Origin: Sulfurovum indicum
GTDB lineage: Bacteria; Campylobacterota; Campylobacteria; Campylobacterales; Sulfurovaceae
Assembly (NCBI RefSeq): GCF_014931715.1
Contig: NZ_CP063164.1
Coordinates: 1,612,001-1,676,000 of the forward strand
DNA length: 64,000 bases
Direction of reading: 5' to 3'
The notes below the pieces were generated by a model. The model had not been told where the DNA came from. It ran no database searches and saw nothing but the letters and a program-made list of their open reading frames with translations. The translations under genes and the position numbers were made by a program. Shown piece by piece: positions 4,191 to 7,130 of this stretch (positions are counted from its first letter, which is position 1; each line of letters starts with the position of its first letter).

Positions 4191-4213
4191 GTATATTATT
4201 CTTTTTTGATTTG

Positions 4214-4222
4214 ATTATAGCA
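4214..4222 (-). promoter_or_regulatory. Extended -10 promoter of the HlyD-like/pxp operon
   Basis: The reverse strand reads TGCTATAAT, an extended -10 element, 24 bases before the ATG at 4190. No good -35 is present. The island boundary repeat lies about 30 bases further upstream. Confidence 0.55.
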
Positions 4223-4251
4223 AAATAGCTTTAACGGGAGCAGGTGATTTT

Positions 4252-4266
4252 AGGAGCAACGATAAG
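4252..4266. repeat. Displaced att copy (distal island end)
   Basis: Sequence AGGAGCAACGATAAG, identical to the 3' end of rnpB at 6717-6731. The bases on either side differ from those around the rnpB copy. It lies in the upstream region of the HlyD-like gene. Confidence 0.75.
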
Positions 4267-4327
4267 TTATATTCACTTACCGTCTACACGGTACTTTATT
4301 TTACATTGGTACAGTTTTTGGCACAAG

Positions 4328-4822
4328 CTAATTAATTTTTTTATACTCTTTACATGAAATGTTATCACCAAGATCACAGGCGCGTTTAAAAAGTTGTTTA
4401 GCTTTTTTATATCTTGATCTTTTTGAGCCTTTAATTTTAACTATTTCTCCTGTTTGTGCATCTTCCCAGCTACCTCTTAAATACATTTTTGCAGCAATAG
4501 CACATCCTGAACGCAAATCATATTTACAATCTGATTCCCATCTATCTACACTATTGTTAAAGTATGGTGATGCTGTAACGATTGTTGTTACAAAAGTTAT
4601 CATAACTAATGACAATATCTTTTTACTCAACTTCTCTCCCAGTATCTCCCTGCGGCTTTTATGTTCAAAGAACTCCGTACCCCCAAGCTCCAAGCCTTTG
4701 GCTTTGATTGTATCGACAACCTTTTGGGCTTTTTGCTGATCGTGCATATAGGCTTCGTCTTTGGCTTTGTCGGTGGAGAAGTCGGTGTAGGCTAAGCCGG
4801 TTGTTTCTTTGGGTGTAGCCAT
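4328..4822 (-). CDS. Unrecognised protein with internal signal-like segment and Sel1-like C-terminus
   Basis: A 164-residue protein I do not recognise. Residues 1-65 are polar. Residues 67-85 (KKILSLVMITFVTTIVTAS) look like a lipoprotein-free Sec signal or a single membrane helix placed internally. Residues 90-164 are cysteine-containing (C99, C107, C149, C157), and the end KAKQLFKRACDLGDNISC resembles a Sel1-like repeat of secreted Campylobacterota proteins. The DNA becomes visibly more AT-rich about where the hydrophobic segment begins. The protein may therefore be a fusion of an island protein with a secreted SLR protein. Its ATG overlaps the upstream stop codon (TGATG), so it is coupled to the 170-residue gene. 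Confidence 0.6.
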   Translation of the reverse strand: MATPKETTGLAYTDFSTDKAKDEAYMHDQQKAQKVVDTIKAKGLELGGTEFFEHKSRREILGEKLSKKILSLVMITFVTTIVTASPYFNNSVDRWESDCKYDLRSGCAIAAKMYLRGSWEDAQTGEIVKIKGSKRSRYKKAKQLFKRACDLGDNISCKEYKKIN

Positions 4823-5334
4823 CAGACAAGCCCCCGATCCTGCGGAAGCGACTGCACGGTGTAGCTCATATCCGCTACCCGCTTGTCGGTATTGAGCACA
4901 AGCTCTTTGAGGGTGGCAAAGTGGGTCAGTCCGTTTTGCAGCGTGGTTCTGAAGCCGTTATCCATATTGTTATTGATGGTTTTAAAACTTCTTCCTATCG
5001 CTTCCGCAAGCTCATCAAGCTCTTTTTTCACAAATGCCTTGACATCCTCGTTGCTGCCAAACGCACTGTCAAGCATCTCTTTAAGTTCGCCCTTGTCTAT
5101 CTTGACAGTATCTTTCAGTGCTTCCAGATGGATCGCCATCTCCACTTCGGAGTTTGAACGCTGCAACTCTTTCATAAAGCGTTCACCCTGCTCAATAATT
5201 GCAACAAGCTGCCCACGAGCCATCTCTTCAAGCTTCGCCTGTATTGCATCGACCTTTGAGATCAGTTCCGCGTTTTTCGCACTTATTACGTCAAGTCTTT
5301 CCATGATTTTTTCAAACATCTCTGTTGTTTCCAT
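4822..5334 (-). CDS. Coiled-coil protein of unknown function
   Basis: A 170-residue soluble protein, not recognised. It is almost entirely amphipathic helix: heptad-like stretches run over about residues 5-45 (MFEKIMERLDVISAKNAEL onward) and 80-130, rich in E, K and L. No signal peptide or membrane helix is seen. It lies inside the rnpB island, 45 bases after a small acidic ORF, and its stop overlaps the next start (TGATG). The pair may act together; function is unknown. Confidence 0.6.
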   Translation of the reverse strand: METTEMFEKIMERLDVISAKNAELISKVDAIQAKLEEMARGQLVAIIEQGERFMKELQRSNSEVEMAIHLEALKDTVKIDKGELKEMLDSAFGSNEDVKAFVKKELDELAEAIGRSFKTINNNMDNGFRTTLQNGLTHFATLKELVLNTDKRVADMSYTVQSLPQDRGLV

Positions 5335-5379
5335 CTGTTCTCCTTGGGCTACTTTTGGCTATTTTACCATATTTCATAA

Positions 5380-5550
5380 TCACTCATAATTTTTTTTCCA
5401 ATCATAATCCTCATATTCATCATACGTATCATCTTTAATTTCATCATCGAAAGAAATACCACTTTTCATTCTTTCCATGATCTCATTTCTATTTTTCATA
5501 TCTTCGATTTTCTTTATCTTTTCAATTGTATATTGTTTATTCTCTATCAT
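5380..5550 (-). CDS. Small acidic ORF, probably the 3' remnant of a larger gene
   Basis: A 56-codon frame starting MIENKQYTIEKIKKIEDMKN with an acidic tail (DDTYDEYEDYDW). The same frame stays open upstream to 5646 without a start codon, reading DDFLEIAKKHNYTFLTILL and on into the ATG. That looks like protein sequence and suggests a gene cut off on its 5' side near 5646, where the oppositely oriented integrase fragment begins. Function unknown. It precedes the coiled-coil gene by 45 bases. Confidence 0.45.
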   Translation of the reverse strand: MIENKQYTIEKIKKIEDMKNRNEIMERMKSGISFDDEIKDDTYDEYEDYDWKKNYE

Positions 5551-5588
5551 TCCATCGATTTCCAGCGGGTTCAGCAGGATAGTTAAAA

Positions 5589-5918
5589 ATGTATAATTAT
5601 GCTTCTTCGCTATTTCAAGAAAATCATCTACTGTTTGACAATATTTTCAAAGGTACAGGATCAAGTGGTCATGTCTCCAGTACAGGAATAGATTTTCAGT
5701 GGCGAAATATCAGGTCTCTTACCGGTGTACCTAAAATGAGACTCCATGATATACGACATTTAATTGGTTTTATCAGTATCAATAGTGGTTACAGTTTGGA
5801 ACAAACTGGATCCGTTTTAGGACATACTTCCACAGCTACCACCAAACGCTATTCCAACATGAAAGTAGAAAGTGCTACCGAAGTACTTCGGAATATGTTT
5901 GATAGGTTTACAGAATAA
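5589..5918 (+). pseudogene. Tyrosine recombinase (phage-type integrase), C-terminal fragment
   Basis: A 109-residue frame that keeps the C-terminal catalytic residues of tyrosine recombinases: H53-x-x-R56 in LHDIRH, G78-H79 in VLGHT, and the nucleophile Y88 in TTKRYSN. The first catalytic Arg, the Lys and the whole DNA-binding N-terminal domain are missing; homology appears to start near 5625. The upstream frame is closed by TAG at 5580. It is the likely remnant of the integrase that inserted the island at rnpB. Confidence 0.8.
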
Positions 5919-5959
5919 GTCTGATAAACTTCTGTTTTAAATAACAATTGGACTATTAG

Positions 5960-6367
5960 ATGGGAATACCTACAAAAGAAGAAATTTGTGCCTTTGTAAA
6001 ACATGCTTGTTCTTCAAACTCCAATAGTGAACTTTATTTATGTACAATCAATAGTAGTACTGCACAAAAAATCAAACAGCTTATTCCAATGATATTGACT
6101 AACTATGACGTGATTATTACGGAAGAATATGTAGGGCATGTTCGGAATGGTCATAAAGATGATCTTGAATATATTTGTCTTATCCCTGAGATCATATCTA
6201 ATTTTGATAGGGTTAGTAAAAGTATTGAACCGAACCGTAGGACAAAAAGGACTGAAATTTTTGTTGTATTTGAAAAAAGATATTCAGATAATACCGTCAA
6301 ACTTGTAAAATTGAGAGATATGAGAAAAAAGTGTTTATCTCTTAAAACGATATTTAGGAAAGATTAA
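5960..6367 (+). CDS. PBECR-like (phage Barnase-EndoU-ColicinE5/D-RelE-like) nuclease-fold protein
   Basis: A 135-residue protein. The pattern ITEEYVGHVRNGHKDDLEYI (H60, H65), then IPEIISNFDRV and a strand-rich tail ending LKTIF, fits the layout of PBECR domains. In those, a His pair precedes an 'ip.ii.npd.v' segment and a final K/T-containing strand. These domains occur in phage and conjugative-element polyvalent proteins and in toxins. Here the domain stands alone, with an N-terminal extension of about 45 residues. It lies 41 bases after the integrase fragment on the same strand. No obvious antitoxin partner is adjacent. The family call is by eye. Confidence 0.5.
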   Translation: MGIPTKEEICAFVKHACSSNSNSELYLCTINSSTAQKIKQLIPMILTNYDVIITEEYVGHVRNGHKDDLEYICLIPEIISNFDRVSKSIEPNRRTKRTEIFVVFEKRYSDNTVKLVKLRDMRKKCLSLKTIFRKD

Positions 6368-6375
6368 TAGATTGA

Positions 6376-6472
6376 CCGGTAGACCAAAAACTACCGGAAG
6401 AGTGATAGCTGTGGTTTGATGCCTTACTCTTTCGAGTAATCCCCAAACTTACGTCTTAAAACGGACGCTATC
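6376..6472 (-). ncRNA. Structured intergenic element of unknown class
   Basis: Several nested stems are visible. The outer pair GATAGC (6404-6409) matches GCTATC (6467-6472). Inside it, GTTTG (6414-6418) pairs with CAAAC (6444-6448) and encloses TTACTC (6424-6429)/GAGTAA (6434-6439). CGTC (6452) can pair with GACG (6464). A separate hairpin CCGGTAG/CTACCGG lies at 6376-6397. On the minus strand the innermost stem is capped by GAAA, a GNRA tetraloop, so an RNA transcribed on minus is more likely. I could not match it to a known riboswitch or sRNA family. Confidence 0.4.
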
Positions 6473-6547
6473 TGGTTTTACAATAACATTATAGCATATT
6501 TCTGTTAGCATATCAATATCAACTATTTTTCTTTTTTTTCTTTACCT

Positions 6548-6711
6548 TGTACCATAAAATCAAAATCTAAAAATGGTACATTTTTTAGTACAACCTACTA
6601 TGTTAAAAGGTGTATATTGATGCACTTTTATGCACAGTAGAAAAAATGAAAATCGTTAAAAATAATGGGTTTTTGTCGATGTAGTGGGAAGTTATGCACG
6701 ATTGTGCATAA
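6548..6711. repeat. Cluster of short inverted and direct repeats beside the rnpB att site
   Basis: TGTACCAT (6548-6555) is inverted as ATGGTACA (6573-6580). TGCAC occurs at 6621, 6631 and 6695 and inverted as GTGCA at 6704. TTATGCAC (6692-6699) and GTGCATAA (6704-6711) form a perfect 8-bp stem with a 4-base loop, 5 bases from the att repeat. Such repeats beside an att site could be recombinase or excisionase arm sites; this is inference. The rest of 6473-6716 is AT-rich with no gene that I can support. Confidence 0.5.
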
Positions 6712-6716
6712 TAGTC

Positions 6717-6731
6717 AGGAGCAACGATAAG
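6717..6731. repeat. att copy at the 3' end of rnpB
   Basis: AGGAGCAACGATAAG, identical to 4252-4266. On the minus strand it ends ...GTTGCTCCT, which pairs with the 5' end of rnpB. The gene is thus kept intact by the integration event. Confidence 0.75.
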
Positions 6732-7130
6732 CCGGGTTCTGTCGTTGGGTAGTTATTTATCTAGGCCTGTTGTTGCCAACAGGCTCAAGCGAAGCATGAG
6801 TGCCGATAAACGGCTTTGCAAGAGTTAATACCATATGCTTCTTGCTGCGGACAGGGTTTACCTGGCTGAGGATGTTACCATCCCCACCGGTGGGCTCTTA
6901 CCCCACCCTTTCACCCTTACCGGGGATGATAAGGGAGCAGATAATAAAGAGAAGGCAGCAGGTAATGCTCACTGCTCTCTTCTATCTGCTCCCTGGTCCC
7001 CGGCGGTCTACTCTCTGTTGCACTTGCCCTCAGATTACTCTGGCCATCCGTTAGATGGAGTCCTCTCTTGCGTGCAGCCCGGACTTTCCTCTCGTGGACA
7101 ATGCCACCAGCAACTACCTGTCGCTCCTGT
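6717..7130 (-). ncRNA. rnpB: RNase P RNA
   Basis: The minus strand carries the conserved 5' block GAGGAAAGTCCGGGCT (around 7076-7091) and the 3' block ending in AGAACCCGGCTTATC (around 6727). The termini AGGAGCGAC (from 7128) and GTTGCTCCT (to 6717) pair to form P1. Length is about 414 nt, normal for a class A RNase P RNA. A long variable helix is visible near 6932-6998, where GGGAGCAGATA pairs with TATCTGCTCCC. It processes tRNA 5' ends. Its 3' terminus is the integration site of the neighbouring island. Confidence 0.95.

Follow-up and report, generated by a model that had tools for sequence, protein, structure and literature searches.

A decayed filamentous prophage probably occupies the 3' end of the RNase P RNA gene of Sulfurovum indicum

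Almost every bacterium carries the RNase P RNA gene, rnpB, which is essential. In the stretch of the Sulfurovum indicum genome analyzed here (64,000 nucleotides, termed the window), the last bases of this gene recur at a second point next to the HlyD-like/pxp operon, which raises the question of what lies between the two copies and how it came to be there. A sequence-only reading of the window had proposed a small island integrated at the rnpB 3' end, and we followed up this proposal by comparing the locus with those of related genomes.

The gene is a class A RNase P RNA on the minus strand (6712-7129; full-length match to Rfam RF00010, 277 bits), which places the 15-mer AGGAGCAACGATAAG at its 3' terminus. 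The repeat that had been described as linking this terminus to a second point is indeed perfect, with exact copies at 4252-4266 and 6717-6731 and no further site within two mismatches across the window. The rnpB-proximal core, which reads CTTATCGTTGCTCCT on the minus strand, includes the 3' strand of helix P1, as indicated by comparison of P1 pairing across genomes, and the distal core would be a displaced rnpB end; because the two copies are identical, the host's own copy cannot be told apart in this genome. Frequent recurrence of the 15-mer had been named as evidence that would speak against integration, but the 2,209,694-base genome contains no third exact copy, and just three more sites match with two mismatches.

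We compared the rnpB loci and the DNA past their 3' ends in 61 genomes of the genus, most of the relatives being MAGs, with the contigs of three of them (G009, G005, and G012) stopping within the element. Empty sites, predicted as junctions at which rnpB adjoins the HlyD-like gene, were found in seven species (G052, G019, G017, G046, G029, G026, and G060), where this gene lies 59-226 bp past the 15-mer and is followed in most cases by the same oxidoreductase gene. The same interval is filled in the window genome (2.47 kb), G055 (3.7 kb), G056 (13.2 kb), G023 (4.3 kb), G057 (3.1 kb), G034 (1.5 kb), and G053 (0.7 kb). In each of these seven regions, the far border repeats the rnpB end of its own genome with at most one mismatch, against 0.0008 expected by chance per region; the distal rnpB-end copy of the G035 element shows two differences. 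In G023 (locus L044) and G057 (L043), the rnpB-end repeats flank islands with TOTE-type primase, AAA ATPase or HigBA-like genes, i.e. defence-like cargo at the same rnpB site, and no integrase was seen in either island. A further 15-mer core, near 6697 in L238 (G012:C9), is flanked on either side by phage-like arms and neighbours an OLD-like nuclease, an AbiE-like pair, and a PBECR gene; this arrangement suggests an attP or a point where two elements meet, and a circular phage was ruled out, as end overlap and phage genes are both absent.

The insertion moved rnpB 2.45 kb away from the HlyD-like operon. The distal copy had been placed about 30 bases from the promoter of this operon, and we measured 32 bases to the TATAAT of the HlyD-like gene (4214-4219, minus strand). 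The accompanying claim that the upstream region of the operon was changed holds for the DNA farther upstream, which was replaced, but not for the 15 bp and the approximately 35 bp around the -10 box, which were kept. Accordingly, the promoter region (4191-4251) is as in the empty sites, with 80-95% identity over 31-50 bp to G060, G007, G019, G029, G037, and G052. It is possible that expression of the operon changed after the insertion. We also considered the rnpB end as a -35 box of the HlyD-like promoter, a role that we do not claim, since the spacing fits only in G052.

Between the repeats, the window contains an integrase C-terminus and accessory ORFs, as had been read from the sequence, and these are bordered by phage-like arms. 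The distal arm (4267-4344) is recognizable by an identity of 72-78%, over window positions 4251-4344, to the elements of G055, G056, and G035 at their right ends. It is followed by three ORFs on the minus strand: one with a weak Sel1-like C-terminal end (4328-4822; E 0.12) and weak partial matches in 4 genomes, a coiled-coil-like ORF (4822-5334) present in 1 of 175 family genomes (its own), and a short ORF (5380-5550) for which no relative was found. The coiled-coil-like ORF was rejected as a shared island gene, its relatives being absent from the 175 family genomes and from IMG/VR. No phage-like sequence was found from 4345 to approximately 5550, and this middle segment could derive from a second event. 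On the plus strand, the ORF at 5589-5918 corresponds to the C-terminal third of a tyrosine recombinase (PF00589, E 7e-7; PHROG integrase, E 1e-7), with the HDIRH and LGHTSTATTKRY motifs and the catalytic Tyr, and is 94-96% identical over 91 aa to the full-length integrases of G009 and G035. Close homology begins abruptly at 5643, upstream of which the sequence is degenerate and includes an in-frame stop (TAG inside the longer match); the integrase is thus not intact and only residues from about 270 of 360 are preserved. A PBECR3-like ORF and the arm beside the rnpB-proximal core (6530-6716) complete the element. Together with the core (6530-6731), this arm is 89%, 78%, and 74% identical to the same place in G035, G009, and G055, respectively, and G009 shares the collinear order of integrase piece, PBECR3-like ORF, and proximal arm, with 87% identity over 878 bp (window 5641-6518).

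Searches by tblastn revealed no Rep, secretin or pI/Zot in the window, and no Zot was found elsewhere in the genome of this species. What survives is both att ends, the integrase C-terminus, and one cargo gene, and to judge from this content the window copy is a dead prophage remnant rather than a complete prophage; it would be mobile, if at all, only with an integrase from outside. As its own hallmark genes are absent, the inovirus label of this copy rests on its ends, its integrase, and its relatives, and the integrase clade is one that tailed phages use as well.

These relatives include full-length elements. Those of G056 (13.2 kb) and G035 share a gene order of integrase (358-360 aa), HTH_17, Rep (PF05840, E 4e-14), secretin (PF00263, E 3e-23; PHROG protein IV), Zot-like ATPase, a large Ser/Thr/Asn-rich protein, and a coat-like protein, on the basis of which we assign both to filamentous phages. 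The combination of pI/Zot, Rep, and secretin with the integrase is found in G035, G056, and G397. The slot between integrase and rnpB varies: in G009, as in the window, it is taken by a PBECR3-like ORF, in G056 its product matches PemK weakly, and in G035 its product matches MuF_C very weakly. Neither the integrase nor the Zot protein had a match in 50,697 deposited phage records.

Helix P1, in which the first nine bases of rnpB pair with the last nine, indicates which copy came from where. The G056 5' strand, AGGTGCAAC, is fully complementary to the distal GTTGCACCT but meets a mismatch in GTTGCTCCT, the present end of rnpB; for G035, the 5' strand AGGAGTGAC pairs perfectly with the distal GTCACTCCT, and its pairing with GTTGCTCCT, at which rnpB ends, involves two wobbles. 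Most simply, the distal copy in both genomes would be the former host end and the copy at rnpB would have arrived with the phage, in which case the crossover would lie before the last few bases. In G054 (L065), which is probably another occupied site, the rnpB 5' strand AGGTGCAAC faces the 3' end GTTGCTCCT, giving the same P1 mismatch as in G056.

We searched for integrases in 399 genomes of the order, 175 genomes of the family, and contigs taken one per species. The closest integrases are located at rnpB, and they are intact in G035, G009, G056, G028, and G231 as well as in G397 and G315, which belong to another family and whose rnpB end differs from that of Sulfurovum. Full-length integrases beside rnpB, which the sequence-only reading had suggested seeking elsewhere, therefore exist in other Sulfurovum, in another genus of the Sulfurovaceae, and in another family of the order. 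Nine of the 37 integrases placed in a tree form a clade (support 96/92), of which seven members lie directly at rnpB. The other two are the IMG/VR contig L082 and G005; the G005 contig stops 46 bp short of the gene, and its upstream sequence closely matches that of G012, which carries a truncated integrase at rnpB. On L082, CTTATCGTTGCACCT lies between the integrase and tail/lysis genes, and Rfam detects no rnpB; on sequence evidence, this site is an attP carrying the 15-mer without rnpB. Among the tested integrases outside the clade, none is at rnpB and several sit at tRNA genes. A pattern scan of IMG/VR for the 15-mer returned 87 contigs, which by our estimate is roughly the chance level for a collection of this size, and among the 80 loci next searched for a clade integrase only the already known L082 emerged.

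The clade integrase is carried by inoviruses (G035, G056, and G397, the last with a Zot match of E 5e-16) and by tailed phages (G231 and G315 with TerL, G231 also with a portal protein, and G028 with a GpA-type terminase). In G397, the borders of the 15.2-kb element carry CTTATTGGTTTACCTA, which is that genome's own rnpB end. The integrase is directed towards rnpB in the Sulfurovum inoviruses and away from it in G028, G231, G397, and G315; in the tailed prophages L131 (G231), L128 (G315), and L039 (G028), its orientation is thus opposite to that in the Sulfurovum inoviruses.

Considering that sites occur both empty and occupied, together with the two ends of the element, the integrase clade, the attP, and the displaced host end in two relatives, all read from DNA sequence, we regard it as very likely that the island is the remnant of an inovirus prophage, integrated by site-specific recombination at the rnpB 3' end and later deleted down to one cargo unit. 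Of the initial proposal, integration itself is upheld by the empty sites, the integrases at rnpB, and the non-repetitive 15-mer, while the generic island gives way to a decayed inovirus prophage. Upon recombination, the phage copy would become the new rnpB terminus and, because it supplies the 3' strand of P1, would leave the essential gene whole, the resulting chimeric RNase P RNA presumably being functional; the host's own end would be displaced to the far side of the element, beside the HlyD-like operon. On circular DNA, the ends of the full elements would join at CTTATCGTTGC[AT]CCT. Deletion after insertion would then have removed the Rep, secretin, Zot, and coat genes and most of the integrase, leaving as cargo a PBECR3-like predicted RNase and a convergent structured RNA, whose most likely role would be to restrain the RNase.

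Two other histories of the locus were weighed against this one. A non-phage island or an element without an integrase may have used the rnpB site, the integrase fragment stemming from an earlier occupant; the TOTE/AAA cargo between rnpB-end repeats in G023 and G057, where no integrase is seen, and the middle ORFs of the window, which have no phage relative, fit such a history. However, the collinearity with G009 runs from the integrase piece through the PBECR3-like ORF into the proximal arm, and at the other side the distal arm resembles inovirus right ends, so we judge this explanation unlikely. Alternatively, the 15-bp repeat could have arisen by chance or by duplication of the rnpB tail, with no integration and with rnpB neighbours that merely vary, since the gene order downstream of rnpB is also variable without any repeat in several genomes (G038, G030, and G018). 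Against this, the repeat tracks the genome's own rnpB variant in seven species, empty-site alleles exist, a phage attP contains the same 15-mer, and an integrase clade is bound to rnpB. With only two exact copies in the genome, and with distal repeats in seven regions against the low chance expectation for each, a coincidental repeat was rejected, and we consider this explanation highly improbable. We retain the decayed inovirus prophage as the most likely origin of the element and turn to its cargo.

The cargo ORF (5960-6367, plus strand, 135 aa) encodes a predicted RNase resembling PBECR3 (PF18812, E 8e-7), the score of 29.4 bits being just under the curated cut-off of 30. In 17 aligned solo PBECR proteins, Y49, H60, H65, K106, and an LKT motif are conserved. 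The window protein has G59 in place of the R found in nearly all relatives in this alignment, and for this reason it may be weakened. The AlphaFold model has a pLDDT of 93; compared with the PDB, it gave nothing below E 0.3, some of the best matches being RNase toxins.

Six bases past the end of this ORF, and convergent with it, is a structured small RNA of about 105 nt (6374-6479, minus strand; model R1), supported by covariation and genome searches and overlooked in the sequence-only reading. Eight bases ahead of its start is a TATAAT -10 box (6488-6493, minus strand; promoter match 11/12), found at a like position in most close relatives. Rfam gave no family match up to E 5. The RNA is predicted to adopt a fixed multi-branch shape with a near-invariant UUUUUGGU loop. 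For the first eight relatives (aligned by MAFFT), 97.6% of pair cells are standard and two-sided changes occur in 15 of 27 pairs, a covariation equalled by no shuffle; for 38 matches fitted to the structure, 23 of the 27 pairs show two-sided changes, with 172 two-sided cells compared to 53 expected (0 of 500 shuffles). The minus strand is taken to be the RNA because it offers G-U pairs, one such pair recurring in 25 of 33 sequences, where the opposite strand would have A-C.

Searches with the R1 model placed it in 25 of 175 family genomes and 23 of 399 order genomes. At 23 of the 37 genome sites across the order, it is located beside a PBECR domain, either with a solo PBECR ORF that stops no more than about 10 bases away (19 sites) or with the domain inside long frames that run past the RNA (4 sites). 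At L262, L276, L277, and L278, R1 is antisense within long polyvalent-type frames, directly past the PBECR domain. No PBECR domain lies beside R1 at the remaining 14 sites, one of which (L243) is cut by a contig end. Such orphan RNAs, with no PBECR gene alongside, include L249, L254, L255, L259, and L260, and the one in the G056 prophage is about 200 bases from the PemK-like gene.

We tentatively propose, at somewhat less than even confidence, that the PBECR3-like RNase and the convergent R1 form a new phage-borne toxin-RNA pair, in which the UUUUUGGU-loop fold would bind and block the nuclease domain and would track this domain, in antisense, into polyvalent-type proteins. Rather than an antitoxin, the RNA could be a transcript end, a regulator acting in antisense or an RNA retained for other reasons, which we rate at slightly short of an even chance. 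Its convergent position, unlike the upstream placing in type III systems, and the sites devoid of a PBECR domain would agree with such roles, but its structure is conserved far past the needs of plain antisense pairing and it accompanies the PBECR domain even within long polyvalent-type frames. The proposed pair resembles type III toxin-antitoxin systems (ToxIN, CptIN, and TenpIN) in placing a predicted RNase beside a small structured RNA gene on mobile DNA. Type III systems are defined by a repeated RNA located upstream on the same strand, with a terminator ahead of the toxin gene (PMC5086642), whereas R1 is present as one copy that follows the gene on the opposite strand, without the repeated upstream RNA and terminator, and the protein is PBECR-like rather than ToxN; owing to this layout and the single copy, we do not file the pair under type III. 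The convergent arrangement also allows a type I mode, with the RNA pairing with the toxin mRNA. PBECR domains are known as predicted RNases of the BECR fold, occurring solo and in polyvalent phage proteins, and the parts of that description available to us mention no RNA partner (PMC5512222). In the literature searched, itself incomplete, we found no report of an RNA beside PBECR, and the pair may go beyond known kinds.

The island itself, a prophage at the 3' end of an RNA gene, is of an already known kind, to which the rnpB site appears to be new. It shares with other elements at such ends a tyrosine integrase, a short core, a restored gene, and a direct repeat at the far side, the difference being the target, rnpB. 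The sites tallied in the TIGER/Islander resource paper are tRNA/tmRNA, coding, and intergenic, with rnpB unmentioned (PMC12424338), and in the literature that we searched, whose coverage excludes many subscription papers, no report of rnpB as an attachment site was found. Cryptic inoviruses, to which the relatives correspond in having Rep, secretin, pI/Zot, coat, and integrase genes, have Campylobacterota among their known host clades, and their described att sites are repeats in tRNA genes or beside the integrase (PMC6813254). As far as the available part of the source describes it, the tRNA-dependent lysogeny of mycobacteriophages is a parallel in that the site is a host RNA gene and the supplied end matters to the host RNA, which here is the RNase P RNA (PMC10865867).

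An integrase clade aiming at the last 15 bases of rnpB adds one more to the few structural RNA genes that serve as integration sites. Since filamentous and tailed phages share this clade, the specificity for the rnpB site moves between unrelated viruses. The locus provides a testable case of a host ribozyme with a virus-derived 3' end, and the structured RNA next to the PBECR gene is a candidate for a new RNA family whose function can readily be tested.
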